This document shows positions 4,957-64,000 of a stretch of 64,000 nucleotides of DNA, in pieces. Position 1 is the first letter of the stretch. Each line of letters opens with the position of its first letter. The stretch is from assembly GCA_963971535.1 (NCBI GenBank), contig OZ020591.1, forward strand, positions 19,322,577-19,386,576. Reading direction: 5' to 3'. The position numbers were made by a program, and so were the translations under genes. The notes beneath the pieces are model-generated. The model did not search any database and was not told the origin of the DNA. It saw nothing but the letters and a program-made list of their open reading frames with translations. The stretch comes from Notolepis coatsorum. Lineage: Eukaryota; Chordata; Actinopteri; Aulopiformes; Paralepididae.

Positions 4957-5130
4957 AGAAGTAATACCCTAAGTGTGACTGTGCCACAATAAGGATAAGC
5001 GCTTAATGAAGAGGGGGGGTTTAGGGTAAGGGGTGTAGGGGTAGGGAATAGGATAGGAACCCGGTTTATTTATTGATGCCGATGCTACATACTCTACCAC
5101 ATGGCCCCAGATAGGCATATCGTGTAGATA

Positions 5131-25730: not shown

Positions 25731-26660
25731 TAATATTATTGCTAAAACACAAGGAAGAGGAGATTTTTTGGATGTCAAACCTATTAATTGACCTGTACAT
25801 TGATACAGGAGAGAAACCTATATCCTCTAGCTTGTCTTTATATTGAAACTTGACCCTCTTACTCTCTCATCTCTATCCTTGTTTCTTTTTTCTGTCTCAC
25901 CACCTTGAGGAGGACCCTACGTTTTCTCACATTCTTCAGGGGTTTAGTAACACATGGCTTGTTATTATATGCATGCTTTATACACAACACATGCATAACA
26001 TGGAAATGCTCTTGATGAGGAGATCTTTCCATTTTTCATATCATATAAAGATTATATATAAGAGTAATGTCACAAATACTTAAAAACATGTTGGTCTTAA
26101 AACATGTTGGTCAGAGAGAAAACCAATGAGGACAGTTTTTTTTGTTGCTTTCAAAATAAGTGTTTATTTGCCTTCAAATGTCTTGGTACATGAAAGGGAT
26201 GGATATTCTATGATACCACTACATGGAATTATCTTCTTTAGTGTTTGCTATTATGTAACTGCTTGTGGTTTATGGGAATTGCAGAGCAACCTGATGCAGA
26301 AATGACTGTAACTATTGTGTCATTATTGTGTGTATATTGACAGAGTAATGGCTGAGTGTTGATGAAACTATCAAAACATTCCAGGGACGAGATCAATTAA
26401 CTTTAAATTCAATCAATTCAAAATGTAAACAAATTGTTGTCATGTAGTAAAACCTTTTCATGACAAAATGGTGTCAATATTTCATTTTTAAATAGAATAT
26501 TGACTGAATTAATTTAATTAAAAACATCACATCAAAATGTTTGATATGCTAATGTTCTATAGATACGTGGGAATTTATCTATTATAAGTAAACTAAGACA
26601 ATGACATAGACAATGAAGACACTGAAATATAACTATGAATGTAATAATTAGAGGCATGTT
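25731..26660. other. no gene seen
   Basis: AT-rich, apparently unique. It could be 3' sequence of the dead zinc-finger gene. No exon, RNA gene or repeat end could be supported. Confidence 0.4.
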
Positions 26661-26668
26661 GTCTTGTC

Positions 26669-28180
26669 TCCTGTAGGGGAGTGTCTACAGACAGACAGGT
26701 TATCATGTCTCCTGTAGGGGAGTGTCTACAGACAGACAGGTTATCATGTCTCCTGTAGGGGAGTGTAGACAGACAGACAGGTTATCATGTCTCCTGTAGG
26801 GAGTGTAGACAGACAGACAGGTTATCATGTCTCCTGTAGGGAGTGTATACAGACAGACAGGTTATCATGTCTCCTGTAGGGGAGTGTAGACAGACAGACA
26901 GGTTATCATGTCTCCTGTAGGGAGTGTATACAGACAGACAGGTTATCATGTCTCCTGTAGGGAGTGTATACAGACAGACAGGTTATCATGTCTCCTGTAG
27001 GAGAGTGTATACAGACAGACAGGTTATCATGTCTCCTGTAGGGGAGTGTATACAGACAGACAGGTTATCATGTCTCCTGTGGGGGAGTGTATACAGACAG
27101 ACAAGTTATCATGTCCCATCATCACTGCCCACTTTGACAACCTAGGATGGCTTAGAGTAGACGACAGAGTACAGCAACTTGCAATGGGCCTGGTCTACAA
27201 GATACACTACACGACCAAGGTACCCATGTACATGACTAAATACTTCCCAAAGGTCAGTGAATACCACGATCACAACACCAGAGGGAGCTCCACAAATCAT
27301 GTTAAACCCAGATTCGGCTCAAACAAGGGACTAAACACGTTTCGCAATTATGCCACATCAATGTGGAACGCCCTACCCAAAGCTGTAAAGGAATGTGAAT
27401 CACTACCCACTTTCAAAAACACTCTCAAAAAACACCTAAGGGAGACTGCAACTCGAAACTGGCCCCTGTAAATGTCCGAACACAACCCCCTCCAATGTAG
27501 TATGGTCTTGTCAATAATCCAATGTACAGTGTTGTTTGTACAGTTGTACAGTGTCCCCCACCCACCCCTCCTACCCAACCCCCCCCCCCCCCCCCACTCC
27601 TACCCAACCCCCCCCCCCCCACCCACCCACCCAACCACCTCCAATGTACAGTCCCCCACCCACCCCTCCTACCCAACCCCCCCCCCCCACTCCTACCCAA
27701 CCCCCCCCCCCCCCCCCCCAACCACCTCCAATGTACAGTCCCCCCCCACCCCCACCTACCCAATCCAATGTACAGTTACTACGCCTAATGTATATACTCT
27801 TTTCTTTCTGGACTCTTTTTGTATCACAAACAGTACTGTAATTGCAAATCTGGTATGTCATAAATGTATAGATGTAGCAGTACTGTCTATCTGTATGTCA
27901 TGTATGTCATATATGTTACGATGAATTGAAAATGGGGGACCCTGATGTAAACAAGACGAAAGTCTTTCTCTGGTCTGCATCCCCTTAACAATTGTATGTA
28001 TTGAGCTGTACTGTACTGTACCCATTCTGCAATCTGTTAATAAAGTTTTCATTCATTCATTCATTCATGTCTCCTGTGGGGGAGTGTATACAGACAGACA
28101 AGTTATCATGTCTCCTGTGGGGAGTGTCTACAGACAGACAGGTTATCATGTCTCCTAGGGGAGTGTATACAGACAGACAT
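26669..28180. repeat. about 41-bp minisatellite, split by a LINE C insertion
   Basis: The unit contains 'ATGTCTCCTGTAGGGGAGTG' and 'ACAGACAGACAGGTTATC'. About 11 units at 26669-27113 and nearly 3 at 28067-28180, separated by the LINE C copy at 27120-28065. Unit variants: GGGAG/GGGGAG, TATAC/TAGAC/TCTAC. Confidence 0.93.
27120..28065 (+). mobile_element. LINE C 3' part inside the minisatellite
   Basis: An ORF of about 110 codons is open from 'AHFDNLGWLRVDDRVQQLAM' through 'VYKIHYTTKVPMYMTKYF', 'HNTRGSSTNHVKPRFGSNKG', 'MWNALPKAVKECES' to a stop after 'NWPL'. The 3' UTR has an expanded C-rich region at 27548-27765, the conserved tail, and (ATTC)n. ATGTC borders both sides (about 27112-27116 and 28066-28070), a plausible short target duplication. 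Confidence 0.85.
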
Positions 28181-28401: not shown

Positions 28402-28407
28402 GGTATC

Positions 28408-29815
28408 TGTTGTGAAGGATCAGATTAAACCGAATATATATATTTATTTATGGATATATATTTAATAGTATTTGTATATCGTTTGATATCCCTTGTATAT
28501 TCCTTGTACATATACACTGAATATCCCTTTAGTCTACTAACAGCCCATAATAGTTTCATTCTCTCATTGGACAAGAACTTGGCGCCAGCAGCCAAGCCCC
28601 TTGGTTCAAGTTCAATCGTGCCGACGAACATGTCGTTACTAGCCCGGTTCCGCGTAGGAATACGTCTGGCGAAATACGAATGGTACTATTTGTTCACAGC
28701 GCATATATATATGGCGCAAGTAAAGTAGAACTTCCTTTTAGTCCCTTAGCCCTTAGTTCTTTACCCTCCAACCTAGTGGCAAGACGTTAAGCCTCACCCA
28801 CAATACACGTGTGGTGCAGTATGGTCAATTTGGCCTCAGAATGGCATTGAGACATCGTGTGGATTAATAGTTGAATTGTCATAGTTTGGCACTATACCGT
28901 CGAGTGGGACGTATTTCTATTAAGTTAATAATAGTCTATTATGTATGGTGCATCGTTCGGTTAGAGTTATAAAGTGAGCAGTACCCCCATCGTTTCCTCG
29001 CGTTATCTAGAGTCTTAACCAGGCTGGGCAGACCACGTGTGGTGCTTTCATCCGAGGAGTTCTGGGCCAGGACGAGTGGACCTGCACATTGGATTACCTT
29101 ACCCGGACGACGGCGAGCCCTACACGGCTTGGATTATCTACTTGCTTTGGGTGCTTTGATTATGCCATGGATAACAGCCAACACTGGTAAGTGTTGGAAC
29201 TACCCCCGAGAGGAGTCCAGGTGAGACGGCGCTCTAACCCGAGTGAGGTCGCCTCACGTCTCTTCGTTGTGGACCGGCAGCTACCGTCTACAAGAGGGCC
29301 CAGCTGTATTCATCTGTGGACCAAGGTTCTGTGGGCACCGTGTTCAGTACTCTGAATTCTCCCAAGAAATCGTTGGCCAGATGGGATATCGCCGGCGGCT
29401 CTCCTAACCCCCCCCCCCCCCCCCTACTGACTTACAACCAGCGGGACCCCCTTTAGTGTATCCAGCTATAATAATTAAGTACCATCGCTATAGTTCCCTA
29501 AAGAACCAGGTTGTATACTTGCTTCCTGCGTAACCAGAGATTGGACATTCAATGTTGATTTGCCTACGAATACTCATTTGCCTTACAAGTGCATTCAAAT
29601 CATAAATGTCATTAAGTGAACGTTGTATATACCCTTTGCTATATATTAAATATTCGATTTATACATTTGTGTGGACTTGGTTTCATCAGGTGGGAAAGTG
29701 TTCATCATATCTATATCATGTACTGTGTGGCCAGTAGTTAAAGTACATAAAGCGGTAGTGGTTTAATGATACCATACTTATCAATACAGTCAGGGAATTG
29801 TACCCCTCAGTTACA
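28408..29815 (+). repeat. 5' LTR of the BEL/Pao element
   Basis: Begins TGTTGTGAAGG and ends CAGTTACA; a near-identical copy lies at 35420-36821. Contains a C17 run near 29407. Open frames inside it are shared by both LTRs and are not genes. Confidence 0.93.
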
Positions 29816-35301: not shown

Positions 35302-35419
35302 CGACCATGACCCCATGACTTTGTGAGTTGACTGACCCTTACAGCGGACCTTGAGTGGTAGACAGTGCGGTTAATCTGTCTCTGCTTAGCTAATTAGGTG
35401 GGACTAATTAGGGGGCGGC

Positions 35420-36821
35420 TGTTGTGAAGGATCAGATTAAACCGAATATATATATTTATTTATGGATATATATTTAATAGTATTTGTATATCGTTTGATA
35501 TCCCTTGTATATTCCTTGTACATATACACTGAATATCCCTTTAGTCTACTAACAGCCCATAATAGTTTCATTCTCTCATTGGACAAGAACTTGGCGCCAG
35601 CAGCCAAGCCCCTTGGTTCAAGTTCAATCGTGCCGAGGAACATGTCGTTACTAGCCCGGTTCCGCGTAGGAATACGTCTGGCGAAATACGAATGGTACTA
35701 TTTGTTCACAGCGCATATATATATGGCGCAAGTAAAGTAGAACTTCCTTTTAGTCCCTTAGCCCTTAGTTCTTTACCCTCCAACCTAGTGGCAAGACGTT
35801 AAGCCTCACCCACGATACACGTGTGGTGCAGTATGGTCAATTTGGCCTCAGAATGGCATTGAGACATCGTGTGGATTAATAGTTGAATTGTCATAGTTTG
35901 GCACTATACCGTCGAGTGGGACGTATTTCTATTAAGTTAATAATAGTCTATTATGTATGGTGCATCGTTCGGTTAGAGTTATAAAGTGAGCAGTACCCCC
36001 ATCGTTTCCTCGCGTTATCTAGAGTCTTAACCAGGCTGGGCAGACCACGTGTGGTGCTTTCATCCGAGGAGTTCTGGGCCAGGACGAGTGGACCTGCACA
36101 TTGGATTACCTTACCCGGACGACGGCGAGCCCTACACGGCTTGGATTATCTACTTGCTTTGGGTGCTTTGATTATGCCATGGATAACAGCCAACACTGGT
36201 AAGTGTTGGAACTACCCCCGAGAGGAGTCCAGGTGAGACGGCGCTCTAACCCGAGTGAGGTCGCCTCACGTCTCTTCGTTGTGGACTGGCAGCTACCGTC
36301 TACAAGAGGGCCCAGCTGTATTCATCTGTGGACCAAGGTTCTGTGGGCACCGTGTTCAGTACTCTGAATTCTCCCAAGAAATCGTTGGCCAGATGGGATA
36401 TCGCCGGCGGCTCTCCTAACCCCCCCCCCCTACTGACTTACAACCAGCGGGACCCCCTTTAGTGTATCCAGCTATAATAATTAAGTACCATCGCTATAGT
36501 TCCCTAAAGAACCAGGTTGTATACTTGCTTCCTGCGTAACCAGAGATTGGACATTCAATGTTGATTTGCCTACGAATACTCATTTGCCTTACAAGTGCAT
36601 TCAAATCATAAATGTCATTAAGTGAACGTTGTATATACCCTTTGCTATATATTAAATATTCGATTTATACATTTGTGTGGACTTGGTTTCATCAGGTGGG
36701 AAAGTGTTCATCATATCTATATCATGTACTGTGTGGCCAGTAGTTAAAGTACATAAAGCGGTAGTGGTTCAATGATACCATACTTATCAATACAGTCAGG
36801 GAATTGTACCCCTCAGTTACA
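35420..36821 (+). repeat. 3' LTR of the BEL/Pao element
   Basis: Same boundaries as the 5' LTR; a purine-rich AGGGGGCGG tract lies directly before it. The C run near 36420 is 11 instead of 17, which accounts for the length difference. Confidence 0.93.
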
Positions 36822-40013: not shown

Positions 40014-40213
40014 NNNNNNNNNNNNNNNNNNNNNNNNNNNNNNNNNNNNNNNNNNNNNNNNNNNNNNNNNNNNNNNNNNNNNNNNNNNNNNNNNNNNNNN
40101 NNNNNNNNNNNNNNNNNNNNNNNNNNNNNNNNNNNNNNNNNNNNNNNNNNNNNNNNNNNNNNNNNNNNNNNNNNNNNNNNNNNNNNNNNNNNNNNNNNNN
40201 NNNNNNNNNNNNN
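40014..40213. other. assembly gap (200 N)
   Basis: Exactly 200 N's between the 70-bp array and the first copy of the direct duplication. The missing dehydrogenase exon and the left part of duplication copy A could lie here. Confidence 0.99.
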
Positions 40214-40309
40214 TGTTTTGTACAGTAAAAACTAAAACAGTTACAGTAAACAAACTATTGTGAAGTAAAAAAAAAAAAAAAAAAGTTAAAGGACGAAAAA
40301 AAGAAAACA

Positions 40310-40850
40310 TTATGGTGCTCAAGCAGCACCTTGCCTCTCCTCAGCATTTGGCCAAAGGATTTCATCTACGTCATATCTGACCGCCATGTCTACAAGTGCC
40401 CTCTCCGGCTGCACAGAGAGAAGACGGCCACGTCCTCCACTTGGTGGCGCTCGTTCAGTTCTAATGTACAGTAAAGATAACAATTACAAAAATTATTCAC
40501 AGCCCACACCTTTAGTATTTATGAAATATACTGTAACAGACAACAATATAATTTTTTACAATTACTGTAATTTCAATATACAGTTACGGTACAGTAATAT
40601 GCACATATTGACTTACCGATTATCTCTCTTACTGTAAAGATTCTTATAATGGATGCCACCGTTGACCTGTTCACGTTTGGCTGCACCACCCTGCCAGCTT
40701 CAGCCAGTGTTAGTCCTCAGTTTACAGTATAATACGTGTATTACGTGGTCAACAATTGTGGCTATAATTTAATTTGAGACAGATGTTCTTCTGCCTCCTT
40801 GGCCACGACCCTGTCCTTCGTTGCCAACCTCAGCTGCACCGACTTGCTCC
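40310..40850 (-). pseudogene. Tc1/mariner-type transposase remnant (copy A)
   Basis: Minus strand, from the N-terminal side: 'GQGRGQGGRRTSVSN', 'ATIVDHVI', 'LAEAGRVVQPNVNRSTVASI' (helix-turn-helix), 'PPSGGRGRLLSVQPERALVD', then directly the C-terminal 'VDEILWPNAEERQGAA' and stop. The middle with the DDE residues is missing and frames change, so it is a deletion derivative. A paired-type HTH plus the DENLWP-like C-terminus fits an IS630/Tc1-type transposase common in fish. Confidence 0.6.
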
Positions 40851-40940
40851 ATGTTGCTCCTTTCTTCAGGTTTCTAAGCATCCTTTTATGTAGTGGTGAA
40901 GAAATAATTTTGTTGCAATGCTACTCACCTGGGCAAGGTT

Positions 40941-41421
40941 TTTTTTTTCTTTATCCACTTTTTCTCCCCATTTTCTATATTTTCTCCCATCCCAATTTCG
41001 CATCATCCAATTCAACCCTCCCCTGTCACGAACGCTGTTTCTTGCCTCCCACAAGCCGGCTGCAATGTGGACTAAGTCATACATAGCACAAGTCCCCTCC
41101 GGTACTTGAGGTAACAGCAGTCGCATCTTTTCACCTGCGCAGCTCGATCTCTCAGTGGCGAGGAGTAACGCGTGGGAGGCTCACGCTGCCCCCGATACTT
41201 CCTGATTCTACAGCGCAGGCGCACCAACCGACCTGTAGGAGTCGCTGTCCACAACGCCCGATCCCCACCATCAGTTTCCCACCTCCTAATACGGCCAATG
41301 TGTATTAGTATGAACGACCAGCTAAACTGAAAGCAATGTGGAGTGCCGGGCTCGAACAGGCGAGCCCAGCGTCTCTGCATTCGTGGCGAGCGCCTTGCCC
41401 ACTACGCCACGTAGCCGCCCT
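40941..41421 (-). mobile_element. SINE-1, copy A
   Basis: Same element as at 10128-10608, with TSD ACCTGGGCAAGGTT at 40927-40940 and 41422-41435. tRNA-like head at the right end (minus strand). Confidence 0.9.
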
Positions 41422-41460
41422 ACCTGGGCAAGGTTGTTGAAGGTAATGAGACTAGTCTAT

Positions 41461-42845
41461 CAGTGAGCTGGATACAATCCTACCTGGAGGGGAGAGAACA
41501 GATGGTGGAGGTAAACGGTACCCTATCCCCCCCCCCTCACAGCTGTGGTGTTCCACAAGGAAGCATACTAGGACCGCTACTATTCCTAATTTATGCAAAT
41601 GACATGTTGTCAGCTTGTGACTGCAACTTGTTCCTGTTTGCGGACGACTCAGCCCTGCTGGTCTCTGACAAGAACAAGTTACAGGTTGAAAAAGCCCTGC
41701 ATAGGCAAAATCTGCATATGGCTTGCCGACAACAAACTATCATTATTTACACATGGGCAAAACAGAGTCCATTCTCTTCGGTTCAAATAACAAACTCAGC
41801 AAGACCGACGGCTTCTCGGTTACAGTGGGTGACAATATTGTCACAAGGAAAGATGAAATTACCTACCTGGGTTCCATCCTAGAGGCTAATCTTTCCTGTG
41901 ACAAAATGGCATCCAATGTAATAAAAAGAGTCAACCAACAAACTCGATTCTTGTACCGGATCTCCTCTCTGGTAAACAAGAATACCCTGAAGACTCTGGC
42001 ATCAAAGCACCTCAAAGGCGCTAAAAACAAAATTACAAACATCTCAAAACAAACTGGTCAGACTACTGCTTGACCTTACTCCTAGAACCCACCTCACCCC
42101 TGCCCACTTTGACAACCTAGGATGGCTTAGAGTAGACGACAGAGTACAGCAACTTGCAATGGGCCTGGTCTACAAGATACACTACGCGACCAAGGTACCC
42201 ATGTACATGTCAAAATACTTCCCAAAGGTCAGTGAATACCATGATCACAACACCAGAGGGAGCTCCACAAATCATGTTAAACCCAGATTCGGCTCAAACA
42301 AGGGACTAAACACGTTTCGCAATTATGCCACATCAATGTGGAATGCCCTACCCAAAGCTATAAAGGAATGTGAATCACTACCCACTTTCAAAAACACTCT
42401 CAAAGAACACCTACGGGAGACTGCAATTCGAAACTGGCCCCTACAAATGTCCTAACCCAGTTGTACAGTAAATGACCAAGTATGGCTTTGTCAGTATTCC
42501 AGTGTACAGTGTACAGTGTGTGTGTCCCCAAACCCCACCCCACCCACCCAACCTCCCCAATGTACAGTTTCTACGTCAAATGTATATACACTCTTTTTCT
42601 GGACACTTTTTGTATCACAAACAGTACTGTATTTGCAAATCTGATATGTCATAAATGTCTAGATGTAGCAGTACTGTCTATCTGTATGTCATGTATGTCA
42701 TATATGTTATGATGAATTGAAAATGGGGGACCCTGATGTAAACAAGACGAAAGTCTTTCTCTGGTCTGCATTCCCTTAACAATTGTATGTATTGAGCTGT
42801 ACTGTACTGTACCCATTCTGCAATCTGTTAATAAACTTTTCAATC
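41461..42845 (+). mobile_element. LINE C 3' part, copy A
   Basis: From 'SWIQSYLEGREQMVEVNG' through the C run (41526-41537), 'CGVPQGSILGPLLFLIYAND', 'LFLFADDSALLVSDKNKL', 'NQQTRFLYRISSLVNK', 'VYKIHYATKVPMYMSKYF' and 'MWNALPKAIKECES' to 'QMS' stop, 3' UTR and tail 'CAATCAATTTCAATCAATCA'. There is a deletion after 'QVEKAL', so the frame is broken. 5' truncated. Confidence 0.88.
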
Positions 42846-43204
42846 AATTTCAATCAATCACATTAGTACAAACAGCTGTTGAATTGATTTAGTGATCTGC
42901 ATTTGTAGTAATAAGCTATTGAACATTGTTGTAATATGAGGTGGCTGTATTCTGAGAATGGAGCATATGATTTAGAGTTTGGCACTTTGTATTAACAGTT
43001 TTGCACTTACACATACAGTAGGATATAATGTTTTAAGGTAAGAATTCTGCAAGTCAGTTTAGAATTTAGGATTATGAGTTTGCATGTTATATGTAAGCAT
43101 AGCATTTAGTATCTTAGAGTATGTTTGTTTGGTAATTTGCATTTTGAGTTTTGTACATTGAAATTCTGCTGTGCAAAATGAGTCAAAGCAATCGTAAAAA
43201 ACTG
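42846..43204. mobile_element. right end of the Tc1-like element (copy A)
   Basis: Ends at 43204 with the inverted terminal sequence 'GAGTCAAAGCAATCGTAAAA' AACTG followed by TA. Counterpart of 48736-49094; the left end of this copy is lost in the gap. Confidence 0.65.
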
Positions 43205-43277
43205 TAATGGGTGCTTGTTGGCAATTTGCATATTCATATAGACCCTTGCATCTCAATGACGGTAAAGGTGTAGAGAT

Positions 43278-43560
43278 TAGGGTTGGGTACCATTCACACC
43301 GTTCACCAGTACCAGTTCCTGGAATTTGGTATCGTTACCTAACGGTACCCCTTTTCGGTACTTAACTCTCTCTGTAATACTTTTTTATTATTTCAGTTGT
43401 AAAAAGAATTTGTCCAAACTTCTCAATTTCAACATTGTTATTTATTCAGAACATTTAGTTATTTATTGTTGTAACACACCACACAAAATGAATAGCATGA
43501 TCATGTATTATGTTTTTAAATGTTAAAATATCAATATTATCTTTATAATATCATCCTCAG
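43278..43560. mobile_element. truncated hAT-like element (copy A)
   Basis: Starts TAGGGTTGGGTACCATTC, related to the ends of the hAT at 17197-17599, with CGGTACCCCTTTTCGGTAC inside. No right end. Confidence 0.5.
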
Positions 43561-43967
43561 TAAATATGATCAAACTCCTCTGACCTCGTCGTGACAGTAA
43601 TATATATACTCGAAAATATAAGTTATATTGTTTGTTAGGGTTCAGTTGTTTACAGATGAAGCAGAGTCAATACGGAACTAATATGTGAACAGACTATTGA
43701 CTTGTTGTTAACACTCCACCCAAAAATAATATTTTGCACATAATCTCACACACCAATCCACTAATCCACACTAATTCAAAAACTAGGCAACCTTTAAAAA
43801 TGCACACCACCAGCTGTGGTACACAAGCCAAACCATGCTGATACAACAGTCCCAGTCAGCTTTGACCAGGTCGTGAAAGGTGTCTGTCTCAGTCAGGTCT
43901 GGCCTGGTTCTAAAGACAATGGAGACGCTCACTGTGTTCCAGACAGGCCACGACACGGCTAAACTCT
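43561..43967. other. no gene seen
   Basis: AT-rich sequence between the hAT remnant and the SINE. Duplicated at 49451-49857. Confidence 0.4.
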
Positions 43968-44231
43968 GGCAGTGGCTCAGGAGGCAGAGCAGTCGTCTGG
44001 TAGTCGGAAGGTTCCAGGTTGGATTCCCAGTCCACTCCTCCCAGGCAGGGTGTCGAAGTGTCCTTGAGCAAGTCACTTAACCCCTAATTGCTCCCGATGT
44101 GCAGGTTGGCACCTTGCATGGTTGCCTCCGCCATCGGTGTGTGAATGTGAGTGAATGGGTGAATGTGAGGAACAAACTATTGTAAAGCGCTTCGGATAAA
44201 AGCACTATAATTGCACCATTTACTATTTACA
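43968..44231 (+). mobile_element. tRNA-derived SINE-2 (copy A)
   Basis: Head with A box 'TGGCTCAGGAGGCAGAGC' and B box 'GGTTGGATTCC'. Body 'GTGTCCTTGAGCAAGTCACT', 'AATTGCTCCCGATGTG', and end 'TTGTAAAGCGCTTCGGATAA'. A SINE type widespread in teleosts. Confidence 0.8.
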
Positions 44232-44247
44232 AGTCCAGTGGTTCATG

Positions 44248-44470
44248 GCCACGGTGGTGTAGTGGTTATAGGCGGCACGGTGGTGTAGTGGTTAACACTG
44301 TCGCCTCACAGCAAGAAGGTCCAGGGTTCGATTCCCGCTTGGGGACCAGGTTTCCATGATGCCAGTTACCCAGGTGGGGTATCTCCCAGGCCTTTCTGTG
44401 TGGAGTTTGCATGTTCTCCCCGTGCTCGCAAGGGTTTCCCCCCGATAAGATAAACCCAATGGAAAAACAT
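44248..44470 (+). mobile_element. tRNA-derived SINE-3 with duplicated head (copy A)
   Basis: CACGGTGGTGTAGTGGTTA (A box) occurs twice, 26 bp apart. B box 'GGGTTCGATTCCC'. Body 'GTGGAGTTTGCATGTTCTCC', 'CCGTGCTCGCAAGGG'. Another common fish SINE-type repeat. Head duplication is unusual. Confidence 0.7.
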
Positions 44471-44509
44471 GCACAACAACAGATCGCTAACGCTGTGGCG
44501 ACGTAGGGC

Positions 44510-45177
<668 letters not shown>

Positions 45178-45180
45178 CAG

Positions 45181-45275
45181 GTCTTGGAGGCTGGTACAGC
45201 TACAGGATGTCCAAAGCAGCCCTCAACATGGCCACCAGAAACCTGTCCATCGAGCTGGGACGCGGTCGACCCAAG
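45181..45275 (+). CDS. SDR (C-factor/sniffer-like) gene, active-site exon
   Basis: A 95-nt exon after TGTCTCCAG and before GTAACT. It enters with two bases of a split Gly codon and reads 'LGGWYSYRMSKAALNMATRN', 'LSIELGRGRPK' (31 codons), ending in phase 0. YRMSK is the YxxxK catalytic motif of short-chain dehydrogenases: Tyr acts as the acid-base and Lys positions the cofactor. N in ALNM is the usual following Asn. The frame is intact, unlike the first and last exons. GGWYSYRMSKAALNM is characteristic of the C-factor/sniffer carbonyl-reductase-like branch. The exon lies between the two copies of the 4.8-kb duplication. Confidence 0.85.
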
Positions 45276-46198
45276 GTAACTCATGTGACTTTATGTTTGA
45301 CAATTATGTTTGACTATTGTCATTCAGTATCCATTTCTGCCCCCGTTTTAAAGATCCCCTCCGCTCAAAAACATGTTTTTTTTATGGTTAACTCCTCTTG
45401 GAGGCATGACTTTGACTATACAGACTATACCGTTTCCACACTCTTCTCTTCCCCTGGAGTTGCATGTGTGATGTCACTAACAGGCCGAAGCTCTCATGGT
45501 CCAACATGTGGCAACTTGACACCGTTGGCTTCAGCTACACAGACAGCTGAGTAGGTCTTGATCTTTCTTGAAAGAATATAAGCTGGCGATTTGGAATTAC
45601 TGGTGAATATTACAGTTTTGTTTTTTACGATTGCTTTGACTCATTTTGCACATCAGCGTTTCAATATGAAAAACTCTTGACACAGAATGCTATACTGCTC
45701 ATTTTGGGTTCAAAATGTAATATAGCATGCAACATCAAAATACCAGTGTCAAATCAGAGAATAGTATTATGCAAAAGTTTATCACAGCAACAGAACATTT
45801 CAAACAATTAAGTGAACAACTGAACCAAATTAGATTATATTTCATGTTAACGTTTATCATAGTGTCAGAACAGTGGATATGTTAATCGCTGAAGTTTTGT
45901 GCACTTTTCAAATACAACGGCCATTATCAAATAATGCAGTAAAACACTAAATACATGTTACCAAAAGAGACTATGCAATGGACATTTCCTCATAACCCCT
46001 GTGATAGACTCCAGTATAGTGCTTGTGTTTTTATGAAAGACAAACAAAATATTTGATTATTTTAAGTTTAATCGTTACAGTAAAGAAAAATACATACAGT
46101 AGTGCTCTGTTTTGTACAGTAAAAACTAAAACAGTTACAGTAAACAAACTATTGTGAAGTAAAAAAAAAAAAAAAAAGTTAAAGGACGAAAAAAAGAA

Positions 46199-46740
46199 AA
46201 CATTATGGTGCTCAAGCAGCACCTTGCCTCTCCTCAGCATTTGGCCAAAGGATTTCATCTACGTCATATCTGACCGCCATGTCTACAAGTGCCCTCTCCG
46301 GCTGCACAGAGAGAAGACGGCCACGTCCTCCACTTGGTGGCGCTCGTTCAGTTCTAATGTACAGTAAAGATAACAATTACAAAAATTATTCACACCCACA
46401 CCTTTAGTATTTATGAAATATACTGTAACAGACAACAATATAATTTTTACAATTACTGTAATTTCAATATACAGTTACGGTACAGTAATATGCACATATT
46501 GACTTACCGATTATCTCTCTTACTGTAAAGATTCTTATAATGGATGCCACCGTTGACCTGTTCACGTTTGGCTGCACCACCCTGCCAGCTTCAGCCAGTG
46601 TTAGTCCTCAGTTTACAGTATAATACGTGTATTACGTGGTCAACAATTGTGGCTATAATTTAATTTGAGACAGATGTTCTTCTGCCTCCTTGGCCACGAC
46701 CCTGTCCTTCGTTGCCAACCTCAGCTGCACCGACTTGCTC
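46199..46740 (-). pseudogene. Tc1/mariner-type transposase remnant (copy B)
   Basis: Same deletion derivative as 40310-40850 (HTH region, then the 'VDEILWPNAEERQGAA' end). Confidence 0.6.
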
Positions 46741-46831
46741 CATGTTGCTCCTTTCTTCAGGTTTCTAAGCATCCTTTTATGTAGTGGTGAAGAAATAATT
46801 TTGTTGCAATGCTACTCACCTGGGCAAGGTT

Positions 46832-47311
46832 TTTTTTTTTTTATCCACTTTTTCTCCCCATTTTCTATATTTTCTCCCATCCCAATTTCGCATCATCCAA
46901 TTCAACCCTCCCCTGTCACGAACGCTGTTTCTTGCCTCCCACAAGCCGGCTGCAATGTGGACTAAGTCATACATAGCACAAGTCCCCTCCGGTACTTGAG
47001 GTAACAGCAGTCGCATCTTTTCACCTGCGCAGCTCGATCTCTCAGTGGCGAGGAGTAACGCGTGGGAGGCTCACGCTGCCCCCGATACTTCCTGATTCTA
47101 CAGCGCAGGCGCACCAACCGACCTGTAGGAGTCGCTGTCCACAACGCCCGATCCCCACCATCAGTTTCCCACCTCCTAATACGGCCAATGTGTATTAGTA
47201 TGAACGACCAGCTAAACTGAAAGCAATGTGGAGTGCCGGGCTCGAACAGGCGAGCCCAGCGTCTCTGCATTCGTGGCGAGCGCCTTGCCCACTACGCCAC
47301 GTAGCCGCCCT
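46832..47311 (-). mobile_element. SINE-1, copy B
   Basis: TSD ACCTGGGCAAGGTT at 46818-46831 and 47312-47325. Differs from copy A only in the T/A-rich tail. Confidence 0.9.
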
Positions 47312-47350
47312 ACCTGGGCAAGGTTGTTGAAGGTAATGAGACTAGTCTAT

Positions 47351-48735
47351 CAGTGAGCTGGATACAATCCTACCTGGAGGGGAGAGAACAGATGGTGGAG
47401 GTAAACGGTACCCTATCCCCCCCCCCTCACAGCTGTGGTGTTCCACAAGGAAGCATACTAGGACCGCTACTATTCCTAATTTATGCAAATGACATGTTGT
47501 CAGCTTGTGACTGCAACTTGTTCCTGTTTGCGGACGACTCAGCCCTGCTGGTCTCTGACAAGAACAAGTTACAGGTTGAAAAAGCCCTGCATAGGCAAAA
47601 TCTGCATATGGCTTGCCGACAACAAACTATCATTATTTACACATGGGCAAAACAGAGTCCATTCTCTTCGGTTCAAATAACAAACTCAGCAAGACCGACG
47701 GCTTCTCGGTTACAGTGGGTGACAATATTGTCACAAGGAAAGATGAAATTACCTACCTGGGTTCCATCCTAGAGGCTAATCTTTCCTGTGACAAAATGGC
47801 ATCCAATGTAATAAAAAGAGTCAACCAACAAACTCGATTCTTGTACCGGATCTCCTCTCTGGTAAACAAGAATACCCTGAAGACTCTGGCATCAAAGCAC
47901 CTCAAAGGCGCTAAAAACAAAATTACAAACATCTCAAAACAAACTGGTCAGACTACTGCTTGACCTTACTCCTAGAACCCACCTCACCCCTGCCCACTTT
48001 GACAACCTAGGATGGCTTAGAGTAGACGACAGAGTACAGCAACTTGCAATGGGCCTGGTCTACAAGATACACTACGCGACCAAGGTACCCATGTACATGT
48101 CAAAATACTTCCCAAAGGTCAGTGAATACCATGATCACAACACCAGAGGGAGCTCCACAAATCATGTTAAACCCAGATTCGGCTCAAACAAGGGACTAAA
48201 CACGTTTCGCAATTATGCCACATCAATGTGGAATGCCCTACCCAAAGCTATAAAGGAATGTGAATCACTACCCACTTTCAAAAACACTCTCAAAGAACAC
48301 CTACGGGAGACTGCAATTCGAAACTGGCCCCTACAAATGTCCTAACCCAGTTGTACAGTAAATGACCAAGTATGGCTTTGTCAGTATTCCAGTGTACAGT
48401 GTACAGTGTGTGTGTCCCCAAACCCCACCCCACCCACCCAACCTCCCCAATGTACAGTTTCTACGTCAAATGTATATACACTCTTTTTCTGGACACTTTT
48501 TGTATCACAAACAGTACTGTATTTGCAAATCTGATATGTCATAAATGTCTAGATGTAGCAGTACTGTCTATCTGTATGTCATGTATGTCATATATGTTAT
48601 GATGAATTGAAAATGGGGGACCCTGATGTAAACAAGACGAAAGTCTTTCTCTGGTCTGCATTCCCTTAACAATTGTATGTATTGAGCTGTACTGTACTGT
48701 ACCCATTCTGCAATCTGTTAATAAACTTTTCAATC
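47351..48735 (+). mobile_element. LINE C 3' part, copy B
   Basis: Same sequence as 41461-42845, including the same C run, the same deletion and the same tail. Confidence 0.88.
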
Positions 48736-49167
48736 AATTTCAATCAATCACATTAGTACAAACAGCTGTTGAATTGATTTAGTGATCTGCATTTGTAGTA
48801 ATAAGCTATTGAACATTGTTGTAATATGAGGTGGCTGTATTCTGAGAATGGAGCATATGATTTAGAGTTTGGCACTTTGTATTAACAGTTTTGCACTTAC
48901 ACATACAGTAGGATATAATGTTTTAAGGTAAGAATTCTGCAAGTCAGTTTAGAATTTAGGATTATGAGTTTGCATGTTATATGTAAGCATAGCATTTAGT
49001 ATCTTAGAGTATGTTTGTTTGGTAATTTGCATTTTGAGTTTTGTACATTGAAATTCTGCTGTGCAAAATGAGTCAAAGCAATCGTAAAAAACTGTAATGG
49101 GTGCTTGTTGGCAATTTGCATATTCATATAGACCCTTGCATCTCAATGACGGTAAAGGTGTAGAGAT

Positions 49168-49450
49168 TAGGGTTGGGTACCATTCACACCGTTCACCAGT
49201 ACCAGTTCCTGGAATTTGGTATCGTTACCTAACGGTACCCCTTTTCGGTACTTAACTCTCTCTGTAATACTTTTTTATTATTTCAGTTGTAAAAAGAATT
49301 TGTCCAAACTTCTCAATTTCAACATTGTTATTTATTCAGAACATTTAGTTATTTATTGTTGTAACACACCACACAAAATGAATAGCATGATCATGTATTA
49401 TGTTTTTAAATGTTAAAATATCAATATTATCTTTATAATATCATCCTCAG
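49168..49450. mobile_element. truncated hAT-like element (copy B)
   Basis: Counterpart of 43278-43560. Confidence 0.5.
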
Positions 49451-49857
49451 TAAATATGATCAAACTCCTCTGACCTCGTCGTGACAGTAATATATATACT
49501 CGAAAATATAAGTTATATTGTTTGTTAGGGTTCAGTTGTTTACAGATGAAGCAGAGTCAATACGGAACTAATATGTGAACAGACTATTGACTTGTTGTTA
49601 ACACTCCACCCAAAAATAATATTTTGCACATAATCTCACACACCAATCCACTAATCCACACTAATTCAAAAACTAGGCAACCTTTAAAAATGCACACCAC
49701 CAGCTGTGGTACACAAGCCAAACCATGCTGATACAACAGTCCCAGTCAGCTTTGACCAGGTCGTGAAAGGTGTCTGTCTCAGTCAGGTCTGGCCTGGTTC
49801 TAAAGACAATGGAGACGCTCACTGTGTTCCAGACAGGCCACGACACGGCTAAACTCT

Positions 49858-50121
49858 GGCAGTGGCTCAGGAGGCAGAGCAGTCGTCTGGTAGTCGGAAG
49901 GTTCCAGGTTGGATTCCCAGTCCACTCCTCCCAGGCAGGGTGTCGAAGTGTCCTTGAGCAAGTCACTTAACCCCTAATTGCTCCCGATGTGCAGGTTGGC
50001 ACCTTGCATGGTTGCCTCCGCCATCGGTGTGTGAATGTGAGTGAATGGGTGAATGTGAGGAACAAACTATTGTAAAGCGCTTCGGATAAAAGCACTATAA
50101 TTGCACCATTTACTATTTACA
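49858..50121 (+). mobile_element. tRNA-derived SINE-2 (copy B)
   Basis: Counterpart of 43968-44231. Confidence 0.8.
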
Positions 50122-50137
50122 AGTCCAGTGGTTCATG

Positions 50138-50360
50138 GCCACGGTGGTGTAGTGGTTATAGGCGGCACGGTGGTGTAGTGGTTAACACTGTCGCCTCACA
50201 GCAAGAAGGTCCAGGGTTCGATTCCCGCTTGGGGACCAGGTTTCCATGATGCCAGTTACCCAGGTGGGGTATCTCCCAGGCCTTTCTGTGTGGAGTTTGC
50301 ATGTTCTCCCCGTGCTCGCAAGGGTTTCCCCCCGATAAGATAAACCCAATGGAAAAACAT
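50138..50360 (+). mobile_element. tRNA-derived SINE-3 with duplicated head (copy B)
   Basis: Counterpart of 44248-44470. Confidence 0.7.
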
Positions 50361-50401
50361 GCACAACAACAGATCGCTAACGCTGTGGCGACGTAGGGCA
50401 A

Positions 50402-51305
50402 AAAATCAATCGAGTGGGGTGTCTAAAATACGTGTTTTTTTGTGGGGAATTCAAATATGAGATTATTTTTCTAATCGGATAACTCCTACCTACATTGTTT
50501 TGGATTTCAAAATGGCCGATTTGACCATTTTTCACCCCTTGGCCATACATGGATGCCAACATGAATCTGAAGGAAATCCTAACATGCAAGGTGTCTAAAT
50601 GATGTGTTTCTTAATGGGGAATTCAAATATGAGTTCATTTTTGGGATAGGATAACTCTATCCTACATCATTTTGGATTTCAAAATGGCCGATTTTACCAT
50701 TTTTCACCCCTTGGCCATACATGGATGCCAACATGAATCTGAAGGAAATCCTAACATGCAAGGTGTCTAAATGATGTGTTTCTTAATGGGGAATTCAAAT
50801 ATGGGATAGGATAAATATAACCTGCATAATTTTGGATTTCAAAATGGCTGATTTTACCATTTGAACCCATTGGTATTGTATTACAAAATTGCAAAGATAA
50901 CAAATATATGGGAAATCATTTATAATGACAAAGCCATCAAATTTATTAACAAGTGAACTGTATATAACTGGATACAACTCCAAAGATCAATAATAATAAT
51001 AATACTAACAATAATAAATTGTATTTGTAATGCACACAAACACCTAAGTGCTAAATCTCGATCTCCTGACTTCTTGAACTTTGCCAGGTTCCAATATCTT
51101 GATTGGACTCATTCTTGGATGGCAAGATCTCCTACTGTACTGCTTTAGCCACCAACCTACAAACACAAACTTAAAGTCAACGTCAGCCATAAATAGGTGA
51201 GCTCTTTCCAGAACTACTCAGCAGAAACCTCTGTAACCATTTTAACAAACGTCTCAATGTATTGAGAAAATCCATGGGGCTCCATCAATCCTCTATCTTC
51301 TTAAA
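50402..51305 (+). repeat. left long TIR with three tandem subunits
   Basis: Three imperfect subunits of about 165-180 bp, each with 'GGTGTCTAAA', 'GGGGAATTCAAATATG' and 'TTGGATTTCAAAATGGC', then about 400 bp of unique arm sequence ending 'CTATCTTCTTAAA'. The inner end overlaps the last codons of the transposase frame. Confidence 0.88.
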
Positions 51306-51943
51306 TTTGATCAGGTTGCACAAGTCCTGCTTGGATTCATTCTTGGACATCAGCCTCCTGCTGGTCTCCTGAGCCCTGATCCCTCCATCCCTTTTTTCTT
51401 GTGAAAAGTACTTAGCAGAGGCCTCAGTCACCACTTTAACAACCCTCTCGATGCTTTGTGTGTGGCAAGGCCAGTCGAGAACCTCCATGGGGGTGTTGAT
51501 TAAGTTATTCACCTCGGAGGTGCTTAGGGAGCAGGTGAGAGGTGGCTCTGACAAATCTTCTGACCAGCTGATTAAGCCACCAATGCTGGAAGCGTCACTA
51601 TTGATGTTAGGTGTTCTTCTGATCCTGACACAGGAGTCTCCCAGCTGAGTGTCTGGATCCCCCTCTCCCCTGATGGCCAGGATTCTCTCCACCCCCTCAA
51701 TTCTCTCTTTTTGATCCTCAGAGCACAGCAGTGTTTGGAGGATGGCTTCACTGTGGGCATACCAAGCAGATCTTCTCACAGTTGGCATCACAACATCCAG
51801 CACCTCCTTCCTCTGAGACTTGAGGCAGTCCAGCTGAAACAGGATGTGCCTAGGCCCTTCGATCCAGGAGTGCTTGACCTTCATGTTGAACCAACATGGA
51901 TAATACACTCTAATGATGAATTCCACAATGCATTGTAGATTAT
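51285..51943 (-). CDS. transposase-like protein, C-terminal part
   Basis: Minus strand. Continues the frame of 51944-53095 after a one-base shift: 'NLNNLQCIVEFIIRVYYPCW', 'FNMKVKHSWIEGPRHILFQL', 'HSEAILQTLLCS', 'ILAIRG', 'VLDWPCHTQSIERVVKVVTE', 'KRDGGIRAQETSRRLMSKN', then 'NLIKFKKIED' and stop. The PCHTQ-ER-VK-VTEAS block and the RDG-IR-SR block near the end look like conserved transposase motifs. I recall similar uncharacterised proteins in fish, arthropods and cnidarians, but this is unverified. Confidence 0.6.
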
Positions 51944-53095
51944 TCAGGTTCTTTCTTTAAGTTGATGCTTTGACACCCAGAGCCTGAGGAGTCTGTTTGC
52001 TGTGGTGAGCCAGCGGCTGTGGTTTACCGGTCCAATCTCCAGCAGAGCCAGCCTTGCAGAAAGCACTCCATCCCTGATTGCACAGACCAGCTTATAGCCA
52101 TAGTGTTGATCAGTTGAGAGATCTTGAATGATCTTCTCAGGCAGCTTGATCAGCGGAGGGCCAAGAAAGATCCTGGTGAAGTTAGGATTGATCTCCAAGT
52201 CTGTAACAGAATCAAGGAGCTGTCCTATTGGCCCAGACAATTTGTTGTCTGACAGAGTAGCCCCATCAACTTCAACAATGAGACGGCGCAGTGGAAGTTC
52301 ACCAGTGTGCAGGTTGCACACCAACCAGACCAGCTTTCTCCCCAGGTGCAGCTCCAGCTTCCGCATTACACCTGCCTTCACTCCAGTGTTGACATTGGTC
52401 GAGTCTCCTCCAATGGCCCACAAGGTCTTATCAGAACCTCTCTCTTTCAGCCAGGCAAACAGGACCTTAGCAATCTTCTCTGCATGGGACTCCTCTTTAG
52501 TTGCTTTCTCTGGTGTAAAGTGGAACAGATAGTTGCTGCCAGGCTCACTAGCAACACTATAGTGTTCTTCCTTGATCTTTGCAGGAAAAGATTGGTCACT
52601 GCCCTCAGCTTCCATCATCACATTGGTCATGTCAATCCGCCCATCAAAGAGGATACAGGAGATCCCCCCCTCCTCCCTGCACTTCTCCTCAAACTCTTCC
52701 CCCAGCTCTTGCATCAACTTTTCTTGTGCTCTATTAACCTTGTTCTTATCAATCACTTTACTTGTGTCATCTTCTAAGATGAGTCCTGCATCAATCAGAG
52801 CTGCAGTTGCTATAGCTGCAGTTGGCCTTAGACCTATGCCATACCTTACACTAGCAAGAGCGATGTTTGGAATCTCATCATAATTTTTCCGTAGCTTTGC
52901 TGAAGCTGCAGGGTCAGTTTCAGGAATGAGCTCAACTTCAGGGACTGTAAGGAAGCTCTCAACATCCTTCCTGGCAACCTTGTCTGCTGCTGCAAAGCTT
53001 TCTTCTTTGCCCCTTCTCCTTTTCTCTGCCTTCTTTTCCATCCCCTGCCTTTCCAATGTTTTAAGAAGATAGAGGATTGATGGAGCCCCATGGAT
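51944..53095 (-). CDS. transposase-like protein, N-terminal and catalytic part
   Basis: Minus strand. The frame is open from 'CIEKIHGAPSILYLLKTL' inside the right arm; the first ATG is in 'RQGMEKKAEK' (about 53041), so the true start is uncertain. Lys/Arg/Glu-rich N-terminus, then 'IPNIALASVRYGIGLRPTA', 'ISCILFDGRIDMTNVMME', 'HYSVASEPGSNYLFHFTP', 'DKTLWAIGGDSTNVNTGVKA', 'KLVWLVCNLHTGELPLRRL', 'LSGPIGQLLDSVTDLE', 'LSTDQHYGYKLVCAI' and 'GPVNHSRWLTTANRLLRLWV'. FDGRxD and GGDSTNVNTG are candidate first and second catalytic Asp motifs of a DDE/D transposase. About 370 codons, ending at 'KERT' stop. Confidence 0.65.
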   Translation of the reverse strand: MHGAPSILYLLKTLERQGMEKKAEKRRRGKEESFAAADKVARKDVESFLTVPEVELIPETDPAASAKLRKNYDEIPNIALASVRYGIGLRPTAAIATAALIDAGLILEDDTSKVIDKNKVNRAQEKLMQELGEEFEEKCREEGGISCILFDGRIDMTNVMMEAEGSDQSFPAKIKEEHYSVASEPGSNYLFHFTPEKATKEESHAEKIAKVLFAWLKERGSDKTLWAIGGDSTNVNTGVKAGVMRKLELHLGRKLVWLVCNLHTGELPLRRLIVEVDGATLSDNKLSGPIGQLLDSVTDLEINPNFTRIFLGPPLIKLPEKIIQDLSTDQHYGYKLVCAIRDGVLSARLALLEIGPVNHSRWLTTANRLLRLWVSKHQLKERT

Positions 53096-53802
53096 TTTCT
53101 CAATACATTGAGACGTTTGTTAAAATGGTTACAGAGGTTTCTGCTGAGTAGTTCTGGAAAGAGCTCACCTATTTATGGCTGACGTTGACTTTAAGTTTGT
53201 GTTTGTAGGTTGGTGGCTAAAGCAGTACAGTAGGAGATCTTGCCATCCAAGAATGAGTCCAATCAAGATATTGGAACCTGGCAAAGTTCAAGAAGTCAGG
53301 AGATCGAGATTTAGCACTTAGGTGTTTGTGTGCATTACAAATACAATTTATTATTGTTAGTATTATTATTATTGATCTTTGGAGTTGTATCCAGTTATAT
53401 ACAGTTCACTTGTTAATAAATTTGATGGCTTTGTCATTATAAATGATTTCCCATATATTTTTTATCTTTGCAATTTTGTAATACAATACCAATGGGTTCA
53501 AATGGTAAAATCAGCCATTTTGAAATCCAAAATTATGCAGGTTATATTTATCCTATCCCAAAAATGACCTCATATTTGAATTCCCCATTAAGAAACACAT
53601 CATTTAGACACCTTGCATGTTAGGATTTCCTTCAGATTCATGTTGGCATCCATGTATGGCCAAGGGGTGAAAAATTGTCAAATCGGCCATTTTGAAATCC
53701 AAAACAATGTAGGTAGGAGTTATCCGATTAGAAGAATAATCCCATATTTGAATTCCCCACAAAAAAACACATATTTTAGACACCCCACTCGATTGATTTT
53801 CC
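53060..53802 (-). repeat. right long TIR with two tandem subunits
   Basis: Inverted copy of the left arm lacking one subunit. About 743 bp. The few substitutions against the left arm (for example ACGTG/ATGTG and TATGAGATTATT/TATGGGATTATT) suggest a recent element. Confidence 0.88.
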
Positions 53803-53803
53803 A

Positions 53804-54468
53804 AAAAAAAAAAGTATGGCCCGCCCTGTGGCGTCCTTGACGAAGACGGACAGGAGCACTTGGATTGGTCCCCTGGCACGGCTCACGTTGACGCCTGTCT
53901 GCTCCCGGCTGCCCTTGGGGGGCAAGGACGACGGGATGGGTTAATCGCAGATACGAATCGCATCTGCGATCCTAAAAGAGACAATGCATGCGTCTGTGTT
54001 CCGGTGTGTGTGCTATACTAACCGCTGTGTGTACCACTAAAACATTGAGTGTCGTTGCATGCCGAATAAAGACCTCTGCAACAGGTCCTGCATTATTATA
54101 GTGACTACATGAGGTTTATAGGTAATAAGTAACAACGTGTAAAGCTCACCTGACTCCACAGCTGTTGGTACCAGATTAAGATTAAAAGAGGTCATTCAAA
54201 CATATTGACCTATTTATTTATCTCGCCAAAGTCAACTGTCCTGTTTGATTGAGGCAATAGTTCAAAACTTCTGAACTGATTCAACCCTTATTTATTCATA
54301 AAATGTCTTATTTAGAACTGCTTATCAGTTGAGATGTGTTTTTGTGGACCTGAGCATGTAGTTTATTGAGTAGAGCACGCCACGAACGCTGGCAGGACTC
54401 CCACTGGGACCACCCTTGCTAAAAATGTACTAAGACGTGTCTCTGTAAAGTGGCCGCCTAGTGGCATG
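53804..54468. other. no gene; unidentified repeat-like sequence
   Basis: GC-richer sequence with 'GACGGGATGGGTTAATCGCAG', 'AATCGCATCTGCGATCC' and an AATAAA at about 54065, which resembles the 3' end of a retroelement but cannot be named. Nothing firm to 54468. Confidence 0.3.
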
Positions 54469-59435: not shown

Positions 59436-60050
59436 AGCTAGTGAGTACGATATATTGTACGATATATTGAGCTACTTAGTACGATATATTGAGCTACTTA
59501 GTACGATATATTGAGCTAGTTAGTACGAGACAACGAGCTAGTTAGTACGATATATTGAGCTAGTTTGTACGATATATTGAGCTACTTAGTACAGACAACA
59601 AGCTAGTTAGTACGATATATTGAGCTACTTAGTACGATATATTGAGCTACTTAGTACGAGACAACGAGCTAGTTAGTACGATATATTGAGCTACTTAGTA
59701 CGATTGAGCTAGTTAGTACGCTATATTGCGCTACTTAGTACGAGACAACGAGCTAGTTAGTACGATATATTGAGCTAGTTAGTACGATATATTGAGCTAC
59801 TTAGTACGAGACAACGAGCTAGTTAGTAGATATATTGAGCTACTTAGTACGATATATTGAGCTAGTTAGTACGATATATTGAGCTACTTAGTACGATATA
59901 TTGAGCTACTTAGTATGATATATTGAGCTAGTTAGTACGATATATTGAGCTACTTAGTACGATATATTGAGCTAGTTAGTACGAGACAACGAGCTAGTTA
60001 GTACGAGACAACGAGCTACAGTAGTTAGTACGAGACAACGAGCTAGTTAG
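59436..60050. repeat. 22-bp minisatellite with two alternating unit types
   Basis: Units GAGCTACTTAGTACGATATATT and GAGCTAGTTAGTACGAGACAAC (both 22 bp) are mixed over about 27 copies. It lies directly upstream of the coding exon at 60145. Confidence 0.93.
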
Positions 60051-62204: not shown

Positions 62205-62548
62205 TGGTATCTGATCAATATCCCATACTGATGCCTGGTAACAGATCAATATCTCATAACGATGCCTTGTTTTAGCCTGGTAACAGATCAATATCCCATA
62301 GTGACACCTTGTTTTAACCTGGTAACAGATCAATATCCCATAGTGACACCTTGTTTTAACCTGGTAACAGATCAATATCCCATAGTGACACCTTGTTTTA
62401 GCCTGGTAACCGATCAATATCCCATAGTGACACCTTGTTTTAGCTTGGTAACAGATCAATATCCCATAGTGACACCTTGTTTTAACCTGGTAACAGATCA
62501 ATATCCCATAGTGACACCTTGTTTTAGCCTGGTAACAGATCAATATCC
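62205..62548. repeat. 42-bp minisatellite, about 8 units
   Basis: The unit contains 'CCTGGTAACAGATCAATATC' and 'CCATAGTGACACCTTGTTTT'. As 42 is a multiple of three it stays open on both strands; not a gene. Confidence 0.93.
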
Positions 62549-62562
62549 CTTTTCACCAGACA

Positions 62563-62998: not shown

Positions 62999-63344
62999 AA
63001 ACCCATATTGTACGCTGGGTATCTTTTGAAATTCATATCTGATATATTTTTGACACAACGTCATCCACGCATTCACGCTTGGTTGGTATTTTCTAAAGTG
63101 GTGGCGTCACATAAACAAGTGACTGCGGTCACAAAAGCCCCAGGCTTGTAAACCGCAGTCACGAAAGGGGCTAGGTATTGGCTCAATACCAATATCCATA
63201 TTGGTGCATCCCTAGTAAGTTGCATTGTTTTGTGACTTTCCCCTCTAACAAAAGGAATGCATTTAATACGTTGTTCTAACAAAGAGGATGCCACCCCTCC
63301 ATCCCACCTTAAATCACCTGCTGGTATCGCCATTCCGGTTCAGT
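62999..63344. other. no gene; foldback scrap
   Basis: 'GTGACTGCGGTCACAAAAGC' and 'CCGCAGTCACGAAAGGGGCT' at 63118-63172 are an inverted pair resembling the tip of the foldback at 23602-24157. 'GGTGCATCCCTA' at about 63204 is hAT-end-like. No exon. Confidence 0.45.
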
Positions 63345-64000
63345 GGCTACCAGCTCAGGGTGCAACAACCATTCAGGTTCAGTGGCTACCAGCTCAGCGG
63401 TGCAACAACCATTCCGGTTCAGTGGCTAGCAGCTCAGGGTGCAACAACCATTCCGGTTCAGTGGCTACTAGCAGCTCAGGGTGCAACAACCATTCCGGTT
63501 CAGTGGCTAGCAGCTCAGGGTGCAACAACCATTCCGGTTCAGTGGCTACTAGCAGCTCAGGGTGCAACAACCATTCCGGTTCAGTGGCTACTAGCAGCTC
63601 AGGGTGCAACAACCATTCAGGTTCAGTGGCTACTAGCAGCTCAGGGTGCAACAACCATTCAGGTTCAGTGGCTACTAGCAGCTCAGGGTGCAACAACCAT
63701 TCCGGTTCAGTGGCTAGCAGCTCAGGGTGCAACAACCATTCAGGTTCAGTGGCTACCAGCTCAGCGGTGCAACAACCATTCCGGTTCAGTGGCTACTAGC
63801 AGCTCAGGGTGCAACAACCATTCCGGTTCAGTGGCTAGCAGCTCAGGGTGCAACAACCATTCCGGTTCAGTGGCTAGCAGCTCAGGGTGCAACAACCATT
63901 CCGGTTCAGTGGCTACTAGCAGCTCAGGGTGCAACAACCATTCCGGTTCAGTGGCTACTAGCAGCTCAGGGTGCAACAACCATTCCGGTTCAGTGGCTAG
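63345..64000. repeat. 39/42-bp minisatellite reaching the window end
   Basis: The unit contains 'CATTCCGGTTCAGTGGCTA' and 'GCAGCTCAGGGTGCAACAAC'. Units are 42 bp (CTACTAGCAG) or 39 bp (CTAGCAG), plus a few 38-40 bp variants (CTACCAGCTCAGCGG). Mostly multiples of three, so long open frames appear on both strands. The array continues beyond 64000. Confidence 0.95.

Follow-up and report, generated by a model that had tools for sequence, protein, structure and literature searches.

A young foldback-armed DNA transposon with an unassigned transposase in the genome of Notolepis coatsorum

We analysed 64,000 nucleotides of the Notolepis coatsorum genome (GenBank assembly GCA_963971535.1, contig OZ020591.1, positions 19,322,577 to 19,386,576), referred to below as the window and numbered from its first letter. 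At 50394–53827, with its transposase on the minus strand, lies an element that we interpret as a degenerate member of a young family of autonomous cut-and-paste DNA transposons; for this explanation as a whole, inferred steps included, we estimate a probability of about 0.9. The family has defined tips, subunit-bearing arms, a 9 bp target duplication, a palindromic target preference and an empty site at the window locus. It comprises hundreds of near-identical copies, many of them with uninterrupted frames, and includes a frameshifted subfamily present at several sites. A recently active DNA transposon had been proposed here in a first-pass annotation made from the sequence alone, and the near-identity of the copies, the exact target duplications and the empty sites bear this out.

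The ends were determined from other copies in the genome (3.42 Gb, 4787 contigs). We fetched 20 copies, picked for having the left arms most like that of the window element, and extended them beyond the ends given in the first-pass annotation. The true tips are TAGGGCGGGCCATAC followed by a T-tract on the left and an A-tract followed by GTATGGCCCGCCCTA on the right, and both (exact pattern TAGGGCGGGCC...GGCCCGCCCTA) are present in 18 of the 20. Two copies (L036 and L047), in each of which one tip was not found, were excluded from the duplication count. In 15 of the 18 two-tip copies the inverted terminal repeats are bounded by an exact target duplication of fixed length, 9 bp; two others (L040 and L043) have an exact 8 bp duplication and one (L048) has none. 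The two-tip copies are 3624–3643 bp long, except for L042 (4248 bp). We note that in L047, the tips of which lack the outermost base, the 12 bp flanks near 3472 and 7090 are inverted complements (TGGGAGGCTCAC and GTGAGCCTCCCA) instead of direct repeats.

When the tips are transferred to the window, the element previously placed at 50401–53803 is retained and its ends move outwards to 50394 and 53827, positions defined from the other genomic copies together with the empty site. The left tip carries an internal deletion and the right tip lacks its final A. The copy is bounded by an imperfect 9 bp target duplication, GTGGCGACG on the left (50385–50393) and GTGGCGTCC on the right (53828–53836), which agree at seven of nine positions. 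As a query for the empty site we joined the window flanks, with the element and one duplication removed. All 40 scored places (from 1163 candidates) match the joined flanks at 98–99%. Five were fetched and read, and every one of these host-repeat copies contains ...CTAACGCTGTGGCGTCCTTGACG... with a single GTGGCGTCC, identical to the right duplication of the window copy. These are the empty target sites expected for a cut-and-paste transposon. Since the host repeat is uninterrupted at other genomic places and a duplication bounds the element in the window, the element inserted into one member of a dispersed repeat family, and in the window copy its left junction is scarred.

A second stretch of the same element is found nearby. 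Two 4.8 kb segments, 40214–45027 and 46108–50917, are near-identical, with zero substitutions and just four one-base gaps. The first of these begins directly after a gap of 200 N (40014–40213), contains the left 516 bp of the element (44512–45027) and breaks off within the arm of the transposon, at the TC microsatellite of 45026–45177. Either a tandem duplication took place here very recently or the assembly is at fault.

The arms, tandem subunits and minus-strand frames noted previously are all real. In the window copy the left arm spans 50394–51305 and the right arm 53060–53827, with inverted stretches of 314 bp at 100%, 301 bp at 96% and 220 bp at 96% complementarity; the inner 314 bp are identical between the arms and the outer 301 bp are 96% alike. 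A 172 bp direct repeat occurs 2.3–3 times in the left arm, as three subunits starting at 50418, 50590 and 50762, and twice in the right arm. The earlier count of three left and two right subunits is correct for this copy. It does not hold for the family, in which length and block count indicate three per arm, and the right arm of the window copy has therefore lost one. Fetched copies with both tips have arms of about 942 bp built of subunits of about 172 bp, in most cases three per arm; long arms of tandem subunits of this kind are characteristic of foldback-type elements. Overlap of the arms with both ends of the coding frame, as previously described, is seen at the stop end only: the stop codon (51285–51287) lies inside the left arm, while the first ATG (53041) is separated from the right arm by 18 bases.

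The most conserved part of the subunit is the block GGATTTCAAAATGGC.GATTT.AC.ATTT, kept in each of the five window-copy subunits (one example is at 50502–50530). An exact count of this block gave 3+3 in 15 of the 18 two-tip copies and 3+2 in the remaining three. Because those three copies are of full length, a base change in the block is likelier than the loss of a subunit. A domain of the Galileo transposase is reported to bind multiple sites within the tandemly repeated arms of that element (PMC3688188). By analogy, we propose that the GGATTTCAAAATGGC block is a candidate binding site for the N-terminal part of the transposase.

The family is abundant and young. When the left arm was used as the query, 1489 candidates were obtained and 40 of them scored; the resulting 43 rows consist of the query place, 39 places matching at 96–99% over most of the arm and three partial matches. 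All 112 scored places of the protein search (983 candidates) match at 98–100%. The motif RWLTTANR occurs at 434 genomic places and the motif around the second Asp, GGDSTNVNTG, at 417; among the matches listed, none differs from the family by more than a base or two. Divergence of the arms is 0.7–0.9% both within and between the 18 two-tip copies, a comparison that gave no sign of extra homogenisation of the arms inside a copy. Searches of the same genome for divergent relatives gave one place for an N-variant of the motif, which is not a relative, and none for HARWLTTAN. The 19-base tip is found at 917 places, half of which should not be read as an element count since another repeat also carries some of the tips.

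By hand count, 62 of the 112 scored protein places have an uninterrupted frame of 594–625 residues. The single frameshift of the window copy is not private to it: the corresponding 391-residue frame was found at 19 of the 112 places, the window included, and at one of these the match is additionally interrupted by a stop. The argument that a reading frame whole except for one frameshift implies recent activity is consequently unsound, as the frameshift is common to a subfamily located at different sites; recency follows from the identity of the copies, not from the wholeness of the frame. Eight of the fetched copies (L034–L040 and L045) have the 391-residue frame, and six of these (L034, L035, L037, L038, L039 and L045) have exact 9 bp duplications at different places, so they represent separate insertions made after the frameshift arose. 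The broken copies were thus probably mobilised in trans by intact copies, which is the simplest reading; functional frameshifting in the copies with the 391-residue frame is a possible alternative. We also note a 554-residue open frame common to ten scored places (nine with the same E-value), which may mark a further subfamily with an altered transposase.

The target sites follow a clear rule. Every one of the 15 exact duplications combines a pyrimidine as its second base with a purine as its eighth. In a further sample of 40 9-mers beside tips, taken from one side only and irrespective of duplication status, 39 have the pyrimidine, 39 the purine and 38 both. As a control, the strongest purine/pyrimidine skew among 11 positions just outside the 9-mer is 30 of 40, at position −13, a value that is inflated by shared flanks. 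Eight of the 40 sampled tips (L062, L070, L086, L087, L090, L093, L096 and L097) have TCATCATAT with the same 20 bp flank, and some tips have therefore been multiplied inside another repeat. Duplicates were dropped from this sample (40 to 30), and pooling with the first set gave 43 distinct sites, of which 42 have the pyrimidine at position 2, 42 the purine at position 8 and 41 both, with a purine at position 3 in 38 and a pyrimidine at position 7 in 36. Taken together, these preferences form a palindrome that approximates CYGnnnCRG. The site of the window copy itself, GTGGCGTCC, agrees at position 2 and disagrees at position 8. Published target rules have the same layout at other lengths, for example nTnnnnAn for Hermes, GTNCGNAC for hobo and GTCCGGAC for P.

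The transposase of the window copy is encoded by two minus-strand frames of 391 residues (51944–53119) and 223 residues (51285–51956), which are offset by one frameshift. In 500 dinucleotide shuffles a frame of 391 residues was never reached (maximum 316) and one of 223 residues was reached in three. The first part of the protein, 365 residues from the first ATG (51947–53041), contains D133, D213, C242xxH245 and HSRW (341–344). The second, after the frameshift (51285–51956), contains PCHTQSIERVVK and a candidate catalytic Glu and ends at the stop codon. In a copy with a single open frame (L046) the protein has 582 residues from the first Met, with D133, D213, C240xxH243, W342 and E530; the different numbering of the CxxH reflects two residues of the window frame that L046 lacks. 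The motifs thus run D133, D213, CxxH 28 residues later, RW and then E, with 79 residues between the Asp residues and 316 between D213 and E530 in L046. No CxxC, CxxxxC or HxxxH-type (zinc-finger) pattern is present in the L046 protein.

These are candidate motifs of the group that comprises hAT, MULE, P, Kolobok and Dada. A CxxH following the second Asp is a feature that PMC3706591 describes in hAT, Kolobok, P and MuDR, and in Kat1 it is required for hairpin formation (PMC4763223). Muta1, a MULE, depends on D214, D283, H307, W401 and E419 (PMC5225508). Of the DDE motifs proposed in the first-pass annotation, the order and spacing are ones seen in the D-D-CxxH-E group. For the putative RNase H fold, single-sequence models were of poor quality, reaching predicted local distance difference test (pLDDT) values of only 34 and 56. 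In the better of the two, a low-confidence model that matched no structure convincingly, D133 ends one strand and D213 is close to the end of a second; one strand and one helix intervene, the same succession as in an RNase H core.

The earlier statement that the transposase could not be assigned stands, as there is no significant match in Pfam, NCBIfam or the PDB sequences. With the window frames and L046, Pfam gave only sub-threshold matches, the best being UPF0020 at E-values of 0.067 and 0.063. The hAT models gave no match at E-values up to 10 and the MULE model none, with the caveat in both cases that HMMER filters can miss very distant members; the THAP model likewise gave none. No NCBIfam match was obtained for the window frames. 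Against PDB sequences, the best match of the first frame was to a receptor kinase (E-value 0.0059), which we judged to be due to chance, and the full-length copy and the second frame reached 0.32 and 1, respectively. The best PHROGs match (E-value 0.018) is to a family of unknown function.

No relatives outside this genome were found in searches of viral, GTDB, phage and plasmid sequences. Two matched stretches in viral contigs are not relatives, and DNA patterns gave 14 and 7 viral loci, with tblastn yielding short chance matches only (E-values 5–10); further viral searches returned no match. Three loci were found in GTDB contigs, with no tblastn match at an E-value of 0.001, and phages and plasmids gave no match, the protein searches among these having been made with the first frame only. 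A literature search that included the motif strings located no recognised description of the family, which is not proof that it is unpublished since subscription papers and Repbase Reports were mostly outside reach. The family may already be listed in Repbase or Dfam. There are uncharacterised animal proteins that we take to be similar, a lead only and not a test.

From its sequence features, the element would best be placed as an unassigned D-D-CxxH-E transposon with foldback-type arms. When compared with hAT, MULE, P and Kolobok elements, it departs from each in at least one feature; its way of working would resemble that of hAT, MULE and P elements. The spacing between the second Asp and the Glu points to hAT and the length of the duplication points to MULE. 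A more novel reading, possible but less likely than not, is a D-D-CxxH-E lineage at the superfamily level for which there is no curated profile, combining hAT-like spacing, a 9 bp duplication, a palindromic rule of the CYGnnnCRG type, foldback arms and no zinc finger. Such a lineage would have entered the genome recently, a single expanding family with no older relatives in sight, its intact and frameshifted copies spreading together.

A strongly diverged hAT member that makes duplications of 9 bp rather than 8 bp is a possible, if somewhat doubtful, alternative. The motif order, with a long insertion between the second Asp and the Glu, is that of Hermes, hobo and Kat1. The interval of 316 residues is close to that of Hermes, which we take to be about 323 (D248–E572), and the TAGGG tip presumably resembles hAT tips. 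The target rule is also laid out as in Hermes and hobo, with T or a pyrimidine at position 2 and A or a purine at the penultimate position. However, the 8 bp duplication of hAT elements is found in only two of 18 copies, against 9 bp in 15 and none in one. There is no Pfam hAT match (dimerization domain or BED), the CxxC, CxxxxC and HxxxH-type patterns are missing from the protein, and the 0.94 kb arms with their 172 bp subunits contrast with terminal repeats of 17 bp in Hermes.

We consider it unlikely that the element is a strongly diverged MULE or an element of the Rehavkus/NOF type. The 9 bp duplication falls within the 8–10 bp of MULEs and is combined with long terminal repeats, which in MULEs extend to 1193 bp (PMC13359780). 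Muta1 has long arms with tandem repeats, makes 8–9 bp duplications and is classed as a type 2 foldback element (PMC5225508); for Rehavkus, 9 bp duplications and a minisatellite are described in PMC6446971. Muta1 and Rehavkus also share the D-D-CxxH-E arrangement. In MULEs, however, the second Asp and the Glu are 120–214 residues apart, gaps included (PMC13359780), compared with 316 here, and neither a Pfam MULE match nor a zinc-finger pattern was found. Muta1 is reported to be without apparent target preference (PMC5225508), whereas the rule here is clear.

Membership in the P superfamily as an element of the Galileo type is improbable. Galileo and Tetris have similarly long, internally repeated arms, with subunits of comparable length in Tetris (about 220 bp), which is described as apparently non-autonomous, unlike the present family. 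The motif spacing and the duplication differ from those of P elements: the second Asp and the Glu are separated by 227 residues in P and 238 in THAP9, as calculated from positions given in PMC8230255, and the duplications are 8 bp in P and 7 bp in 1360. A CxxC or HxxxH-type pattern and a Pfam THAP match are also lacking.

Dada belongs to the same DDE and C/DxxH group and occurs in fish among others (PMC3706591). It differs in its 6–7 bp duplication, in the introns present in most members and in its insertion into small RNA genes; Dada-U6_DR encodes a 1402-residue protein with zinc fingers. Kolobok elements duplicate TTAA, which the fetched copies, mostly with 9 bp duplications, do not. Lastly, an inverted segmental duplication with an old coding fragment and no transposon, which the near-identical 4.8 kb duplicate segment adjoining the element might suggest, is refuted by the empty sites, the target duplications and the hundreds of dispersed copies.

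For the cut-and-paste transposon that we favour, we envisage a transposase of about 580 residues that has an RNase H-like DDE core and belongs to the D-D-CxxH-E group. This would bind the repeated sites in the arm subunits, then pair the ends and cut at TAGGG/CCCTA, and insertion would take place with a 9 bp stagger at nYRnnnYRn sites. Frameshifted copies, that of the window among them, would be moved in trans by the transposase of intact copies.

An element of this kind is ordinary; the mix of features is unusual, and the family is young and well suited to experiment. Drosophila elements (Galileo and Tetris) and some MULEs (Muta1, for example) already provide cases of foldback-type arms. As the present family looks autonomous, with foldback arms, hundreds of near-identical copies and many open frames, the role of the arm subunits can be tested, whether in providing binding sites, in copy-number change or in self-pairing. 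With its mixture of traits, the family is relevant to the relationships among hAT, MULE and P elements, and its transposase might be developed into a new DNA-delivery tool.

Several other features were noted in the window. Two 1.4 kb direct repeats (28407–29815 and 35419–36821) are 99.3% alike and 5.6 kb apart, and the interior between them is GC-richer with a strong excess of A over T; they resemble retrotransposon long terminal repeats. An exon-like stretch at 45183–45275, after the TC repeat, has sub-threshold matches to short-chain dehydrogenases (E-values 0.057 and 0.21). Minisatellite arrays are located at 5124–5740 and 26658–27115 (both 41 bp), 59457–60006 (22 bp), and 62233–62549 and 63330–63999 (both 42 bp).

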